This document shows positions 1 to 6,650 of a stretch of 64,000 nucleotides of DNA, one piece after another. Made by a program: the position numbers and the translations under genes. Location of the stretch: positions 1 to 64,000 of the forward strand of contig CACFBG010000003.1 of the NCBI GenBank assembly GCA_902564535.1. The letters run 5' to 3'. The number at the start of each line of letters is the position of its first letter. Positions within the stretch are counted from its first letter, which is position 1. The DNA is from an uncultured Prochlorococcus sp. GTDB lineage: Bacteria > Cyanobacteriota > Cyanobacteriia > PCC-6307 > Cyanobiaceae. A model generated the notes under the pieces. It was not told the DNA's origin. It worked only from the letters and a program-made list of their open reading frames with translations, and did no database searches.

Positions 1-796
1 ACCCAACTAATTGTTGGCGTAGAATCATTTCCACAGATTGGCTCCACCCTTCTGCATTTGGAGCAGGAGCCAATATAAACTTGCCAGATTTAATTTCTTT
101 TATAAAGCAATTATTGGGCCCTTGAGGACTTGGAACAACAATAGATATATTGGCGATTTCCAATAAAGAACGATCATTTGGTGAGTCCCCTAGGCCAATA
201 ACCTTGATATTTGGTTTCTTCATAATGCCTTTTAACTTATTAATAGCTTGTCCTTTGCCGCTTCTTTTATCTATTAAGTGGCTCATTCTATTGCCTTGAA
301 CGACATCTAAACCATAAATTAATGATATTTTCTGTAATTCTTTTAAGGCATTCTTAGAAGGATTAAGGAATGGAACGCTCCATAATCTTGCTACAGCTAG
401 TTCAATTTCAGCTCCTTTTAACCCTGTTAGTCGTGTGATCTCAGAATGACTAAGATCTTCAAAGGGAAAAAGCTCTTCGCCTATTTGTTTGCTTAATTTA
501 ATTAGGAATGGTTTTAATTCATCATGTGTTTTTCCTAATGCATATTCACTTATTCCATATAAGTCTTTATTAATTCCATATATTGCCCCACCATTTTCTA
601 CAATATATGGACTTGAAAGACCCAGCTTACTTCTAAAGTTTTCAACTTCAGCAGCCGTTTTACTGGTACAAGGGATTAAATTTATTCCTTCTTTAATTAT
701 CCATTTTAAGGTTTTAATGGCAGGTTCAATATCATAATTATGATCCATTAAAGTCCCATCAAGATCTGTTACTATCCATATACTATCTTTTAGCAT
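1..796 (-). CDS. HAD-superfamily mannosyl/glucosyl-3-phosphoglycerate phosphatase-like protein (partial, runs off window start)
   Basis: Minus-strand frame from ATG at 796 stays open to the window start: MLKDSIWIVTDLDGTLMDHNYDIEP...SKTAAEVENFR...GLGDSPNDRSLL; HAD DxDGT and GDSPND motifs; TAATG overlap with the GH13 gene stop. Confidence 0.8.
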   Translation of the reverse strand, partial: MLKDSIWIVTDLDGTLMDHNYDIEPAIKTLKWIIKEGINLIPCTSKTAAEVENFRSKLGLSSPYIVENGGAIYGINKDLYGISEYALGKTHDELKPFLIKLSKQIGEELFPFEDLSHSEITRLTGLKGAEIELAVARLWSVPFLNPSKNALKELQKISLIYGLDVVQGNRMSHLIDKRSGKGQAINKLKGIMKKPNIKVIGLGDSPNDRSLLEIANISIVVPSPQGPNNCFIKEIKSGKFILAPAPNAEGWSQSVEMILRQQLVG

Positions 797-2547
797 TATT
801 TGTACACCTCATTTCTCCTGATCCATACTACTGAATATGGGTTGATTTCTACATTTGATGCATTTATTATTTTTTCTGATAGATAATCTTTCCATTCAAT
901 ATTGTCATTATGGTTGACTCTAATTCCTAATTCTTCCAAAGAAAATCTATATAACTTACTAGTAAAATTATGAATTACCCAAACCCTATCTTCTCTTTCT
1001 CCTCTGCATATAGCAACAATACCACTGCAGGATACGCTTATATGTCTCATTTGAGATGATGGATGAAAAGCTTTTAATTGACTACGAGTTTTCATCGCAA
1101 ATTGAAGAAACTTAAGGTTCTTACTGGCAAATGATTTTGGATTATTTAAATTATTAAAGAGATCATAAGCGTCAAATTTCTTTCTATTTATATCTCTTCG
1201 CTGACCAGTCTTCTTAAATGTTTCTAGATCATTTTCGCAAGCCAAAAGAGCTTGCAAATAAAAAGCCGGAATACCAGGAAGGGCCATAACAAATAGTTGA
1301 CTTAAAATAAAACGATCTGTTTGCAAAGAATTCCTCTCGTTGCTTTTACTTTTCATTGCGCTCCACCAACTTATATTTAACTCGTAAGGCTCTTCTTCCC
1401 CTTCAGGTAAAGTCCTATGACTAATTAAGCCTCCTCTTTTCTCGCATTCAGATAAAAGATTTTTAATGCGCACATCACTCATCAAACCTTTTAAAGGTAT
1501 CAGCCCAACTCCGTCATGACAGGAGGTGAAATTCAGTAAGGCTGTATTACGAGGCAGACGCTTCCAAGCCTTCAACCATTTATTAAGTAAGTCAGTCTTT
1601 TGACTGATAATCGCTTCAAGAATTAAAGGAGGTAGAGGAAAATTATATGCAATATTCGCTTCGTCAGCAGTTATTAGATAGGAAAGATTATCTTTTTCCG
1701 GAACATTCGTTTCTGTAACTAGGACACCATCTTTTAGTAGATTATTAAGCATAATCCGTATTATCTTGATAATCTTATGTGCTTTCTTATCATTAATGCA
1801 GCGTCCACCTGACCTTTTCCATATAAATCCAACGGCATCTAGCCTTAACCAACTTATACCATTTTCTATATATAGAGCTATAAGTTTTAGATATTCTAGT
1901 AGGAGATTCGGTTCTGCCCAATTCACATCAATTTGATCAGGACCAAAAGTAGTCCATACATCCCTGGGTCCATGTATTGTTTGGATGGTTTTAAAAAGAG
2001 ATGTATTCCTTGGCCTAAAGACATTTTCCCAATTATCTTTTTTGGATGGTGATAATATATATTTTGAACCTGGTTCTTTATCTTTTACAAAATCTTCAAC
2101 CCATTGGTGTCTTGAGGAAATATGATTGAGTACAATATCACCCATTAATTTTCTTTTTTTGCTGATTTTTTTTAAATCTTCCCAGTCTCCAAATGACTTA
2201 TCAATTGTCGTATGACTAGACACAGCAAAACCACCGTCACTAGTTGAATAAAGGAAGGGTAAAATATGAACTATTGAAGACAAATTACCAATATAACTTA
2301 TTATTAAGTCATAAAGAATGTTTAAGGAAGGTTTGTCTGAAGAATAAATAGAATCTGGATATGTAATTAAAACTACAGAGGAAGAATCCCAGAGGTGATA
2401 GTTAGAATCATTTTTTCTGCTTAAGGTTGAATTCTCTTCTGAAATCTGCATCAATTGCGACAATAATAATTCGATATCTTCGGCAGATTGGTCCTGATAA
2501 ATTTCCTTAAGCAGTTGTCTGAGATGGTCACTGTGAAAATCCTTCAA
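796..2547 (-). CDS. GH13 sucrose phosphorylase-family protein (possibly glucosylglycerate/glucosylglycerol phosphorylase)
   Basis: 583 aa ORF; GH13 motifs WLRLDAVGF, VLVTETNVP, FTSCHDGVGL; lies between GpgS and the phosphatase. Confidence 0.8.
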   Translation of the reverse strand: MKDFHSDHLRQLLKEIYQDQSAEDIELLLSQLMQISEENSTLSRKNDSNYHLWDSSSVVLITYPDSIYSSDKPSLNILYDLIISYIGNLSSIVHILPFLYSTSDGGFAVSSHTTIDKSFGDWEDLKKISKKRKLMGDIVLNHISSRHQWVEDFVKDKEPGSKYILSPSKKDNWENVFRPRNTSLFKTIQTIHGPRDVWTTFGPDQIDVNWAEPNLLLEYLKLIALYIENGISWLRLDAVGFIWKRSGGRCINDKKAHKIIKIIRIMLNNLLKDGVLVTETNVPEKDNLSYLITADEANIAYNFPLPPLILEAIISQKTDLLNKWLKAWKRLPRNTALLNFTSCHDGVGLIPLKGLMSDVRIKNLLSECEKRGGLISHRTLPEGEEEPYELNISWWSAMKSKSNERNSLQTDRFILSQLFVMALPGIPAFYLQALLACENDLETFKKTGQRRDINRKKFDAYDLFNNLNNPKSFASKNLKFLQFAMKTRSQLKAFHPSSQMRHISVSCSGIVAICRGEREDRVWVIHNFTSKLYRFSLEELGIRVNHNDNIEWKDYLSEKIINASNVEINPYSVVWIRRNEVYK

Positions 2548-2622
2548 GAATCAATTCTTTAAGTACTCTTTAAAGTAAGGATCTTCTAAAAGGCTTACAG
2601 GTAATGTCTCGCTTACTACAAA

Positions 2623-3861
2623 ATGGACTTCCAACAGGATTTAATTACGTCAATTCATGACTATGGGGTTTTTTCTGATTCCTTGGAGGGAATGAGAAAA
2701 GGCCTATCAGAAAAAGCAACATCACTTTTAATACCTTGTCTTTATGAGGAATTTGAAAGGCCCGCATTAAATCAAATCAAGGAAGTCTTACAAGAATTAG
2801 AAGGACTCCATCAATTGGTCATAGCTCTTTCTGCAGACTCAATAGATGAAGTTAATAACGCGAAAAAGTTTTTTAGGGGTATGCCTTTCCCTGTCCATAT
2901 CCAATGGACAAATGGGCCTTCAGTGAAAGAACTTTTAAAATCTCAAGAAGAGAAAAATGGTCTAGACTTATTAGTTCCTCCGGGGAAAGGTTGGGCTGTT
3001 TGGCAGGGACTAGGAGTTGCGACTAAATCTTCAGAAGTTATAGGTTTATTTGATGCAGATATTAAAACCTTTAAGCCTTCTTATCCAGCCAGAATGTTAC
3101 CCCCTTTGTTAGACCCTTCTTACGGGATTTCATACGTAAAAGCTTTTTACAGCAGATTATCTTTAGAGAATCATTCTTTACAAGGTCGAGCAACTCGATT
3201 ATTTGTTGGCCCACTTCTTACAAGCCTTGAAAAGATATTGGGTGGAGGACCCTTCTTAAAATACCTTCAGGCATTTAGGTATCCTTTGGCGGGAGAATTT
3301 GCATTTACTCAAACTCTTGCTTTGAATTTAAGAATACCTTGTGATTGGGGATTAGAGATTGGTCTCTTGTCGGAGATATATCGACATGTAAGGACAAATC
3401 GAATAGCTCAAGTAGATTTAGGCATTTTTGATCATAAGCATAAGGAAATAGGTGATTCTATGAATAATGGATTACAAAGGATGTGTTGCGAGATCTTTTC
3501 AACAATACTTAGAGGGCTTATGGAACATCAATCTCAAAGCCTCACTAATGATCAGATTTCTACTCTACAAGTTTTATATAGCCGTATAGGAGAGGATAGA
3601 GTTAAGCAATTTGGTCTGGATTCTGTTATAAATCATCTCCCATATAATAGACATCTTGAGGAGATGGCAGTTCAAAAATTCGCCTGTTTAATTAAATCAA
3701 CAGCAGGTGCTTTTTTGAATACTCCGATTACTAAACAACTTCCTGCTTGGTCACGAGTTATTTCATGTGATAGTAGATTTCAAGATGATTTGATTGAAGC
3801 AGGTCATTGTCATTCATCTCAACTAAAATTATTTGGTCAGAATAAATTAATAACAGCTTAA
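2623..3861 (+). CDS. gpgS: Glucosyl-3-phosphoglycerate synthase (GT81-like)
   Basis: 412 aa; LLIPCLYEEFERPAL, VIGLFDADIKTFKPSYPARMLPPLL, GEFAFTQTLALNLRIPCDWGLEIGLLSE typical of GpgS/MPGS-like glycosyltransferases. Confidence 0.82.
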   Translation: MDFQQDLITSIHDYGVFSDSLEGMRKGLSEKATSLLIPCLYEEFERPALNQIKEVLQELEGLHQLVIALSADSIDEVNNAKKFFRGMPFPVHIQWTNGPSVKELLKSQEEKNGLDLLVPPGKGWAVWQGLGVATKSSEVIGLFDADIKTFKPSYPARMLPPLLDPSYGISYVKAFYSRLSLENHSLQGRATRLFVGPLLTSLEKILGGGPFLKYLQAFRYPLAGEFAFTQTLALNLRIPCDWGLEIGLLSEIYRHVRTNRIAQVDLGIFDHKHKEIGDSMNNGLQRMCCEIFSTILRGLMEHQSQSLTNDQISTLQVLYSRIGEDRVKQFGLDSVINHLPYNRHLEEMAVQKFACLIKSTAGAFLNTPITKQLPAWSRVISCDSRFQDDLIEAGHCHSSQLKLFGQNKLITA

Positions 3862-3883
3862 TTCTTGCAACAACCCTTAAAAA

Positions 3884-4036
3884 ATGAATCAGTTAGCTTT
3901 TCCCCGCAGCATCATTCATTTCATAGGAAGAAAACTAGCCCTACCAAAATTTAGAAAAGTCGACCCAATTACTGACCAGGAAATAATCGACCTGGTTGAT
4001 TCGTTTGAGAACTTCAATGGACCAACAAGGAACTAA
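3884..4036 (+). CDS. Putative 50-aa small protein
   Basis: ATG..TAA read by eye: MNQLAFPRSIIHFIGRKLALPKFRKVDPITDQEIIDLVDSFENFNGPTRN. Confidence 0.55.
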   Translation: MNQLAFPRSIIHFIGRKLALPKFRKVDPITDQEIIDLVDSFENFNGPTRN

Positions 4037-4093
4037 ACCGTTGCTTTTAATTGGGCAAGGGCAAATAGAATAAAGAGAAAGGCTGCTTGATTT

Positions 4094-4345
4094 ATGAGAC
4101 GCTTCCTAATCTCAGCTCTAACGGGTTTGACGCTTCTTTTGGCAATAGTGCCAACGGCTATTGCTTACCCAGAAGATCAATTTAACGAATGTATGATTGC
4201 GGCAAAGGCTAACCCTTCATTAGTGGGTGTTTCTGAAAGTTTTGTAGAAGGCTTCTGTGACTGTGCTTTGACAGCCATATTGGATGAAGGGAAAAATGAT
4301 GTGGCCTCAGCTAATAAGTGCGCTAAAGAAACCTTGAATCAATAG
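4094..4345 (+). CDS. Small putative secreted protein with N-terminal signal/TM segment and three Cys
   Basis: 83 aa ORF; MRRFLISALTGLTLLLAIVPTAIAYPEDQ signal-like start; Cys-containing mature part. Confidence 0.7.
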   Translation: MRRFLISALTGLTLLLAIVPTAIAYPEDQFNECMIAAKANPSLVGVSESFVEGFCDCALTAILDEGKNDVASANKCAKETLNQ

Positions 4346-4356
4346 GGCAAATAATT

Positions 4357-4461
4357 ATGCGCTTTATAAATCCAATTGATGTCTTCAAAAAGTGGTTCCT
4401 CAATAAGTTGGTTCCCTATATTGAGGGGACAAAGAAAAAACAAGAAAAGAAGGAGGACTAA
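4357..4461 (+). CDS. Putative 34-aa small protein with Lys-rich C-terminus
   Basis: ATG..TAA: MRFINPIDVFKKWFLNKLVPYIEGTKKKQEKKED. Confidence 0.5.
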   Translation: MRFINPIDVFKKWFLNKLVPYIEGTKKKQEKKED

Positions 4462-4472
4462 GAGATCTAATT

Positions 4473-4628
4473 ATGAACCTGATCGAGTTAGACAAGAAAG
4501 CTGTCCTACTAGTACAGAAGCGACTTGGACTTAGCAACTATGGAATAGTCAACCTTAGTTGGGTCTTTGGTTTTGCAGTAGGAGTTATCGCAACTCTGAT
4601 TCTGCATTGGCTCTTCTCTCCTCATTAA
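4473..4628 (+). CDS. Putative 51-aa small membrane protein
   Basis: ATG..TAA: MNLIELDKKAVLLVQKRLGLSNYGIVNLSWVFGFAVGVIATLILHWLFSPH; AGGAGG upstream overlapping the previous stop. Confidence 0.6.
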   Translation: MNLIELDKKAVLLVQKRLGLSNYGIVNLSWVFGFAVGVIATLILHWLFSPH

Positions 4629-4630
4629 TC

Positions 4631-4738
4631 ATGCGCCGATTTCTCCTTACATTTTTCTACACTTACCAAAGAGGCATCGCAGCAGCGGACTTCTATGAGG
4701 AACCAATAGGTGATGATTTCATCTACCCAGATTGGTAA
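4631..4738 (+). CDS. Putative 35-aa small protein
   Basis: ATG..TAA: MRRFLLTFFYTYQRGIAAADFYEEPIGDDFIYPDW; stop overlaps next ATG (TAATG). Confidence 0.55.
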   Translation: MRRFLLTFFYTYQRGIAAADFYEEPIGDDFIYPDW

Positions 4739-4938
4739 TGAATTTTGCTGATAATTACGCCCGATTATTTGTCGTTATGAGCGTTCTAGGTTTCGAAGCA
4801 GCGAATACTTATTTCGCTAAGGCTGAAATTATTGGAGGGATACTCCCAAACCTCATTGCCTTTGTTTTGTTTCTACTCGCTATTGGCTATTTTTTGTTTA
4901 CGGGCCCCTTATTTGGTACAGGTAAAAAGGATGGATAA
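4738..4938 (+). CDS. Small membrane protein, two predicted hydrophobic stretches
   Basis: MNFADNYARLFVVMSVLGFEAANTYFAKAEIIGGILPNLIAFVLFLLAIGYFLFTGPLFGTGKKDG; start re-assigned from the track (4732) to the ATG of TAATG. Confidence 0.65.
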   Translation: MNFADNYARLFVVMSVLGFEAANTYFAKAEIIGGILPNLIAFVLFLLAIGYFLFTGPLFGTGKKDG

Positions 4939-5053
4939 CTGGCCAACTGTTGAAGCCGCTAATCGAGCAGTAGGGACTGTCGGTTTGCTTCTATTTGCAG
5001 GAACTACTGCTTACCTGGTTTGGCAATTCAAAAGGTTTTTTGGAAAGCAATAA
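4931..5053 (+). CDS. Putative 40-aa single-TM small protein
   Basis: ATG at 4931 overlapping previous ORF by 8 nt: MDNWPTVEAANRAVGTVGLLLFAGTTAYLVWQFKRFFGKQ. Confidence 0.6.
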   Translation: MDNWPTVEAANRAVGTVGLLLFAGTTAYLVWQFKRFFGKQ

Positions 5054-5107
5054 AGATCAGTGACTCTTACCTCTCATAGACAACACAAGATTTACCTCGC
5101 AGCAACA

Positions 5108-5224
5108 ATGGGATATGGACTTGGTTCAGATGATCCTGAAGAGATCGCTTACTACAACAAAATCAAAGCAGATATCAATCAGGACAAGAAAAACAGAAAT
5201 TTGGGAATACCCAGGGAGGACTAA
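5108..5224 (+). CDS. Putative 38-aa small protein
   Basis: ATG..TAA: MGYGLGSDDPEEIAYYNKIKADINQDKKNRNLGIPRED; TAATG junction with next ORF. Confidence 0.5.
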   Translation: MGYGLGSDDPEEIAYYNKIKADINQDKKNRNLGIPRED

Positions 5225-5352
5225 TGCGTTACTTCTGGCCTATTGCTCGGATCGTTTTTTGCCCGCTCACAATCCTGTTTATTTATCTCACCGTCACTGA
5301 GCCACCATCAGATAAGCAAGAGCAAAGCAGTAGCTATTCTGTTCTTGATTGA
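5224..5352 (+). CDS. Putative 42-aa single-TM small protein
   Basis: ATG..TGA with GGGAGGA just upstream: MRYFWPIARIVFCPLTILFIYLTVTEPPSDKQEQSSSYSVLD. Confidence 0.55.
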   Translation: MRYFWPIARIVFCPLTILFIYLTVTEPPSDKQEQSSSYSVLD

Positions 5353-5364
5353 CAGTCGACTTTC

Positions 5365-5389
5365 AAGGGGCCAACTCAGGTCCCTTTTT
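5365..5389 (+). terminator. Intrinsic terminator candidate
   Basis: AAGGGGCC-AACTCA-GGTCCCTT stem (one G-U) followed by TTT. Confidence 0.6.
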
Positions 5390-5393
5390 AATC

Positions 5394-5492
5394 ATGCCTA
5401 TCAACAAACCAATTCCAGATTCTGTTGCTCGCTTTTGGCAAAAGCAGCTTCAAAGAATCAGAGAAATCATCGTTAGACCTCCTAGTAAATAG
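5394..5492 (+). CDS. Putative 32-aa small protein
   Basis: ATG..TAG: MPINKPIPDSVARFWQKQLQRIREIIVRPPSK; lies after the terminator candidate. Confidence 0.35.
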   Translation: MPINKPIPDSVARFWQKQLQRIREIIVRPPSK

Positions 5493-5606: not shown

Positions 5607-5780
5607 TTATCCATAAGCCCCATATTTTGATCTTTTAGCGATAGCAGCCCTACATTTCAGCTCGTTTAACTCCTTGAGTGAAATCGTCTCGGAATGGGCT
5701 TCAAGGTGACGTTCAACCGCTTCTCGCTCTCGCTTGGTCAAGGTCTTGCCTGAATGAATTAATTGGTTAATAGTTCTCAT
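5607..5780 (-). CDS. Small hypothetical protein (57 aa, charged/helical)
   Basis: MRTINQLIHSGKTLTKREREAVERHLEAHSETISLKELNELKCRAAIAKRSKYGAYG; internal ATG preferred because the upstream part of the track ORF overlaps a terminator hairpin. Confidence 0.5.
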   Translation of the reverse strand: MRTINQLIHSGKTLTKREREAVERHLEAHSETISLKELNELKCRAAIAKRSKYGAYG

Positions 5781-5811
5781 CGTGAATCTGTGATGGTGGT
5801 TTTGCGCATAA

Positions 5812-5840
5812 AAAAAGAGGCCAGTCTTGGCCTCTCTCAT
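5812..5840 (-). terminator. Intrinsic terminator for the minus-strand small ORF at 5902-6063
   Basis: Minus strand GAGGCCAAGACTGGCCTC followed by TTTTTTT. Confidence 0.7.
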
Positions 5841-5901: not shown

Positions 5902-6063
5902 TTATGGGTTGTAATTCACGCCGATCTCTCTAAGCAGCCGTTCGTACTGGCTGAGTGAAATCCCCATGGAAGCTGCTTTGGCTTCTCGAACAAAGACATT
6001 GCTCAAATCAGAGGCCTGCCTTAAGGGATCGATCGATCGATCGTGATTGGTCTGATTATTCAT
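5902..6063 (-). CDS. Putative 53-aa small protein
   Basis: ATG..TAA on minus: MNNQTNHDRSIDPLRQASDLSNVFVREAKAASMGISLSQYERLLREIGVNYNP; terminator follows. Confidence 0.5.
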   Translation of the reverse strand: MNNQTNHDRSIDPLRQASDLSNVFVREAKAASMGISLSQYERLLREIGVNYNP

Positions 6064-6503
6064 AAGTAGTTTTAGTGGTTTGATTTCAGTTCTTCTTTTA
6101 TCTGCTTCTAGGTACCTGGTGCCGGCTCATCCCTCGACTTCGTCGAATCATGAGCTATCACCACTATTTCCAATTGAAAAAGAAAGTGGATTTAAGACGT
6201 AATTGATGAAGAAGGAGGAGAACTCGATCTCGCTCGTTCTCTGCTCCTCATAATCAATACGCTTTAAAGGGAGATGGAAGTCTTCAATCTTGTCGTCTTC
6301 CCCCGTGTCTTAGGGTAGATTTTCAAAACCCTAGTCTTTGCAAGGGGACTCAAAGGGCCAAAAAGTGGACTTTTGAGCGATCGCAGCACTCCCTAGAAGT
6401 GGTTTGGCAAAGCACAAAGATTGGTCTACATTCTTTGTGCGTCAAGCAGATCAGCTGGCTTAACAGGTATGAGCGGTGAGGCCAACCCGGCCCACCTTCA
6501 AAA

Positions 6504-6575
<72 letters not shown>

Positions 6576-6650
6576 TATTCCCTTCCATTTATTGGAGAAA
6601 CTGATCATACAAAGTAGAGAGTAATTCAAAATTCCATTAAAATCTAAAAA

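Follow-up and report, generated by a model that had tools for sequence, protein, structure and literature searches.

What are ten minute reading frames doing between gpgS and a tRNA gene in the streamlined genome of Prochlorococcus? The stretch analyzed here (hereafter the window) comprises 64,000 nucleotides of one contig from an uncultured Prochlorococcus sp. Between positions 3884 and 5492, the original prediction had read ten + strand micro-ORFs, and all ten are present at the expected coordinates (Table 1). The TAATG joints (1-nt overlaps at 4738 and 5224) and the 8 nt common to ORF6 and ORF7 (4931-4938) are likewise correct. Chained together, the ten + strand ATG ORFs take up 1,443 nt, whereas 1,000 dinucleotide shuffles gave a mean of 223 nt, a maximum of 705 nt, and at most five ORFs; the minus strand gave 117 nt in one ORF by the same test. 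Since the observed chain exceeds the shuffle maximum, the run is not a product of chance, and the packing is far beyond chance. Nine of the ten frames are apparently genuine small genes, with clear support for eight, and the tenth, ORF1, is a broken piece of an enzyme that moves islands.

Table 1 Features of the micro-ORF run and the surrounding island in the window.
Feature	Position	Strand	Description
GH13 (glucosylglycerate/sucrose phosphorylase-like) gene	796-2547	-	Cargo of the same island
gpgS	2623-3861	+	Cargo of the same island; inside the tRNA-flanked island in G015
ORF1	3884-4036	+	50 aa; decayed tyrosine recombinase fragment
ORF2	4094-4345	+	83 aa; signal peptide (..AIA-Y), four invariant Cys, predicted helices
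ORF3	4357-4461	+	34 aa; probable, weakly supported
ORF4	4473-4628	+	51 aa; single TM helix
Left copy of 10-bp direct repeat TTAATCATGC	4625-4634	+	Exact ORF4/ORF10 junction in G015
ORF5	4631-4738	+	35 aa; TAATG joint to ORF6
ORF6	4738-4938	+	66 aa; predicted two-helix membrane protein, low confidence
ORF7	4931-5053	+	40 aa; single TM helix; overlaps ORF6 by 8 nt
ORF8	5060-5224 (ATG 5108)	+	54 aa from GTG, 38 aa from 5108; soluble; conserved HKIYLAATMGYGLGSDDPEE motif
ORF9	5224-5352	+	42 aa; single TM helix; TAATG joint to ORF8
Terminator-like hairpin with T run	5365-5392	+	Between ORF9 and ORF10
Right copy of TTAATCATGC	5388-5397	+	
ORF10	5394-5492	+	32 aa
Small island ORF	5607-5840	-	77 aa, or 57 aa from internal ATG; kept in G015, G036, G020
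Small island ORF	5902-6063	-	53 aa; kept in G015, G036, G020
Distal attachment repeat	6482-6576	+	15 nt of tRNA-Tyr 3' end and complete tRNA-Thr(GGT) 6504-6575

Searches with tBLASTn against relatives (denoted by genome, G, contig, C, and locus, L) found full-length, in-frame homologues of ORF2 and ORF4-10 in other Prochlorococcus genomes, with 13 homologues for ORF5, 24 for ORF6, 20 for ORF7, and 13 for ORF10. Taken over pairs with modest synonymous divergence, the pooled dN/dS is 0.18 for ORF4, 0.43 for ORF5, 0.21 for ORF6, 0.24 for ORF7, 0.29 for ORF8, 0.27 for ORF9, and 0.30 for ORF10. The homologues of ORF2 (48-98% identity in G052, G015, and contig C16 of the window's own genome, G000) give a pN/pS of 0.35, and the variable columns of this ORF are distributed 35/30/66 over the three codon positions (p=4e-5). 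ORF4-9 show the same skew to codon position 3, which is marginal in ORF10 (p=0.09). These comparisons provide good support for ORF2 and ORF4-10 as translated protein genes under purifying selection. ORF3 has few homologues, being present in G015 and, as a 116-bp block at 96% identity (4346-4461), in G012; four of its five variable columns lie at codon position 3, and on these few data it is a probable gene. The genuine translation proposed originally, for which tBLASTn and dN/dS had been named as the check, is therefore borne out on comparative grounds for ORF2 and ORF4-10, is weak for ORF3, and fails for ORF1, an integrase interior in which homology passes the stop codon.

Some details of the earlier reading need correction. 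Since the first 16 residues of ORF8 are conserved in 15 homologues, which have ATG or GTG at the codon of 5060, its start is best placed at GTG 5060, giving 54 aa rather than 38. ORF2, the apparently secreted product that had been credited with three Cys residues, has four conserved ones (33, 55, 57, and 76).

ORF1 matches residues ~187-269 of recombinases of ~410-435 aa at about 50% identity (53%; E 6.6e-13, tBLASTn). The homology covers 3902-4072 and runs past the TAA of ORF1 (PTRN*TVAFNWARANRI), homologues beyond G015 are only integrase interiors, and the frame is not conserved as an independent one. The matching family keeps R276, R385, H408, and Y417 (numbering of L126); six of eight members match Phage_integrase weakly (best E 0.0017), five match PHROG integrases (best 9.5e-12), and a full member lies beside tRNA-Pro in G036. 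Since the homology continues through the stop and the family retains the recombinase residues, ORF1 is, as judged from sequence, a pseudogene piece of a tyrosine recombinase and not a micro-gene. The family itself comprises divergent picocyanobacterial tyrosine recombinases (L078 958-2265, L079 946-2172, L080, L084-L086, and L125 6257-7396), of which the best-matching member has no Pfam integrase match at E 0.01 and one adjoins tRNA-Pro(TGG).

Hydrophobic helices are predicted in ORF4, ORF6, ORF7, and ORF9 and a signal peptide in ORF2; ORF3, ORF5, ORF8, and ORF10 have neither. The shared membrane role suggested at the outset thus finds partial support, in the former five and not in the latter four. 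Scans of all ten ORFs against Pfam and NCBIfam gave no match above cut-off, the structure model of ORF6 is of low confidence (pLDDT 70), and that of ORF2 has no convincing match in the PDB. The predicted features suggest that the products are probably small membrane modulators.

The run was also expected to form a shared, translationally coupled transcript. An intrinsic-terminator-like hairpin (stem 5365-5387, dG -13.1, z -3.75) lies between ORF9 and ORF10, so ORF10 may be off the transcript of the preceding ORFs. A single coupled operon is too simple an account, as the order is not conserved and the terminator lies ahead of ORF10. A promoter scan was uninformative, with 5 sites where 6.0 were expected. 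Two exact direct repeats of 10 bp that differ in sequence, GGAGGACTAA (4452-4461/5215-5224) and TTAATCATGC (4625-4634/5388-5397), have an equal spacing of 763 nt. A tandem-duplication origin of the run, to which this spacing pointed, was rejected because the intervening DNA is 25% identical, which is the background level; the equal spacing is possibly a coincidence.

The setting of the run becomes clear in G015 (L109), which shows a whole 8.6-kb island with an intact integrase. With gene names assigned by reading the sequences, its order from the left flank is miaE, aroQ, tRNA-Tyr, tRNA-Thr(GGT), an intact 326-aa tyrosine recombinase, a kinase-like gene, a gpgP-like HAD gene, a GH13 gene, gpgS, ORF1, ORF2, ORF3, ORF4, ORF10, two minus-strand small ORFs, a second tRNA-Thr, and glpK. 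Both tRNA-Thr copies lie in an identical ~98-bp repeat that includes the last 15 nt of tRNA-Tyr. The window carries the same island from base 1, and its tRNA-Thr with the tRNA-Tyr tail is the distal copy; the proximal end falls beyond the contig of the window, and G015 serves as the source for the anatomy. The two minus-strand small ORFs of Table 1, common to G015, G036, and G020, sit between the array and this tRNA. The site is empty in G028, G019, G021, and G011, where tRNA-Tyr and tRNA-Thr are followed by an amylase-type gene and glpK. Other islands occupy it in G038 (3.4 kb, with ORF10-8-9), G020 (5.5 kb), G016 (2.2 kb), and G010 (4 kb), and remnants of the start of a G015-type integrase lie beside the tRNA in G038, G036, G010, G020, and G027. 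In G010, the distal tRNA-Thr (L110 8469-8539) reads anticodon AGT rather than GGT, and may be a decayed or altered tRNA.

Positions 1-4634 of the window are 99.2% identical to G015, whereas identity is 67-68% in the flanking chromosome, beginning with glpK. This difference indicates that the island evidently crossed recently between distant lineages. The element is thus bounded by tRNA and repeat, has a tyrosine recombinase (in G015) and an empty site, and is horizontally mobile, which are the features by which tycheposons are recognized. The genes for glucosylglycerate metabolism, gpgP-phosphorylase-gpgS (window 1-3861/L109 6828-11721), are island cargo at 99% identity in lineages that are 67-68% alike. 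Related small-ORF clusters lie near tRNA-Pro(TGG) in G021, G049, G078, and G013. In other genomes, most copies of the ORF families have no tRNA as a neighbor, so the micro-ORF modules are not confined to tRNA-bounded islands. An ORF8 homologue is found directly beside tRNA-Thr(GGT) in G017 (L118 7793-8221), and DNA similar to it recurs across genus g18, suggesting fixation there.

Pieces of the array recur elsewhere as blocks of 85-97% identity: ORF3 alone in G012; ORF4 alone in G054 (4473-4637) and G006 C22 (4473-4633); ORF5-9 in G052, G006, G036, and G078; ORF8-9 in G072, G026, G051, G057, and G038; ORF9-10 in G036, G019, G013, and G042; and the tail of ORF9 with ORF10 in G011, G015 C20, and G006. 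Extra copies of ORF2, 5, 6, 8, and 9 lie on other contigs of the window's own genome. The block ends are mostly at start codons, ahead of different neighbors. ORF9 follows ORF8, a 46-aa 'ADR' ORF, or a 57-aa 'MTKGQ' ORF, each by a TAATG joint; ORF8 follows ORF7, ORF10, or another ORF (f62); and ORF7 is followed by ORF8 or, in many relatives, by a DUF2905 gene, with a TAATG joint or a few nt between. Overlaps of 1 nt occur in 55 of 272 adjacent small-small pairs compared with 7 of 177 long-long pairs; these counts depend on start codons assigned mechanically. Pairwise breakpoint statistics taken over all families are not used as evidence, because they confound divergence with genuine breakpoints. 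ORF9 itself has two C-terminal tails (5326-5352) with a sharp switch after codon 35; the alternative tail is present in six aligned loci (L063 4060, L064 7893, L066 3720, L067 5840, L070 9799, and L072 11368), and a frequent breakpoint, 5329, falls inside this ORF.

One exchange separates the window from G015. ORF4 joins ORF5-9 in the window and ORF10 in G015, and the switch is exact at the 10-bp TTAATCATGC: right of 4634, G015 jumps to window position 5388 and onward (ORF10), and the identity drops from 99% to 90%. This drop rules against a plain deletion of ORF5-9 between the repeats in G015. ORF4 and ORF5 are also adjacent in G020, which leaves the direction of the change between G015 and the window ambiguous.

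Could the mosaic have arisen without exchange? One stable ancestral micro-operon, thinned by lineage losses and with diverging spacers, would make blocks appear to end at ORF edges because non-coding DNA diverges faster. ORF5-ORF9 are indeed contiguous in several genomes, coding sequence is conserved longer than spacers, and a simple deletion in G015 could have arisen through the 10-bp repeat. However, the same ORF abuts at least three different neighbors without a spacer (ORF9 with ORF8, ADR, and MTK; ORF8 with ORF7, ORF10, and f62), the order is reversed elsewhere, with ORF10 before ORF8 instead of ORF8-9 before ORF10, and the blocks are far more alike than the core genomes, with the fall from 99% to 90% at the junction; we therefore regard an ancestral operon as unlikely. 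Chimeras of whole-genome amplification are a far more improbable source of the mosaic. Many of the genomes are apparently amplified single cells, the named matches are single-cell assemblies, and such chimeras likewise use short homologies, but shuffled orders also occur in isolate-type assemblies (L072, L074, and L075), which consist of 1-30 contigs and are 99-100% complete, and this argues that amplification is not the cause. The same joints (ORF8-ORF9, ADR-ORF9, MTK-ORF5, and ORF4-ORF5) recur in independent genomes, and the window lies within a 115-kb contig.

The nature of the small frames may also be questioned. They could be remnants of larger genes decaying in the island, as ORF1 exactly is, and some copies of the ORF6 family (found in 63 of 300 genomes of the taxonomic family, with up to 6 copies each) and of the integrase family elsewhere carry stops or truncations. 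ORF4-10, by contrast, have 4-24 distinct full-length homologues, show no sign of a longer parent, and keep their starts, stops, and low pooled dN/dS; decay is largely refuted for ORF2 and ORF4-10 and is very unlikely as an account of the run. Small genes of a phage or phage satellite, such as anti-host or packaging peptides, dropped at the tRNA, would fit the tRNA target, the recombinases, the many small overlapping ORFs, and the hli genes near some ORF copies. Against such an origin, which we consider improbable, no match was found in 50,697 phage records searched at the DNA level or in viral contigs searched with ORF6 only, and no ORF matched PHROGs above cut-off.

We consider it likely that the micro-ORFs form the distal part of the cargo of an integrative, tycheposon-type island in Prochlorococcus, whose ORF blocks are exchanged. 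A tyrosine recombinase would have inserted the island at the tRNA-Tyr/tRNA-Thr(GGT) pair, leaving a tRNA-Thr copy at each end, and the cargo consists of gpgP, the phosphorylase, gpgS, the dead second recombinase (ORF1), and the small-protein array ORF2-ORF10. ORF2-ORF9 may be carried on one message ending at the 5365 hairpin and translated by stop-start re-initiation at the TAATG joints, and their products may serve as modulators of membrane complexes, in the form of small membrane or periplasmic peptides. Rejoining of blocks would combine homologous recombination within a shared ORF at one end with start-codon microhomology ((C/T)TAATGC, TTAATCATGC) at the other, and would keep the downstream ORF translatable after each exchange. 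Translation itself constrains start codons and TAATG, so selection on the products, rather than a preferred exchange site, could account for their recurrence at joints. A broader proposal, tentative and somewhat doubtful, is that Prochlorococcus maintains a common pool of many micro-protein modules in which start-codon/TAATG joints are natural exchange points, so that mobile islands might build new and directly translatable micro-operons by recombination, with no dedicated cassette recombinase.

Hackl et al. (2023) reportedly described seven tRNA types for tycheposons and published a recombinase tree. Tycheposons, as cited in PMC10872708, are tRNA-integrated tyrosine-recombinase islands of Prochlorococcus. 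The present island shares their tRNA flanks, a tyrosine recombinase beside the tRNA, metabolic cargo, and mobility between lineages, but its cargo adds a micro-ORF array that is itself modular and swapped block by block. Integron cassettes are likewise small genes exchanged as units, head-to-tail on one strand; here, however, the joints lie at start codons, where 4-10 bp are shared, and the moving units are blocks of one to five ORFs. On reading the loci, neither an IntI-type integrase nor an attC site was recognized. The hli genes, which occur in tRNA-associated Prochlorococcus islands (PMC2784084), also encode very small membrane proteins, are multicopy, and are sometimes adjacent to these ORFs, whereas ORF1-10 have no chlorophyll-binding-type Pfam match at E up to 10. 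DUF2905 (PF11146) is another gene for a small membrane protein, and follows ORF7 in many relatives, but it is a widely known family and is absent from the array of the window. We found no description of exchangeable micro-ORF arrays in the literature consulted, which covered tycheposons through PMC10872708. Tycheposon islands are already known, and the swappable micro-ORF cargo appears to be new.

Although streamlined Prochlorococcus genomes should lose DNA that is of no use to them, they retain and exchange arrays of 32-83-aa proteins without a match in any curated family, and annotation length cut-offs hide genes like these. The families, joints, and strains described here are concrete material for small-protein work. 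If islands do trade translatable modules between lineages of 67% core identity, the adaptive flexible genome of the most abundant phototroph would hold an overlooked micro-proteome.
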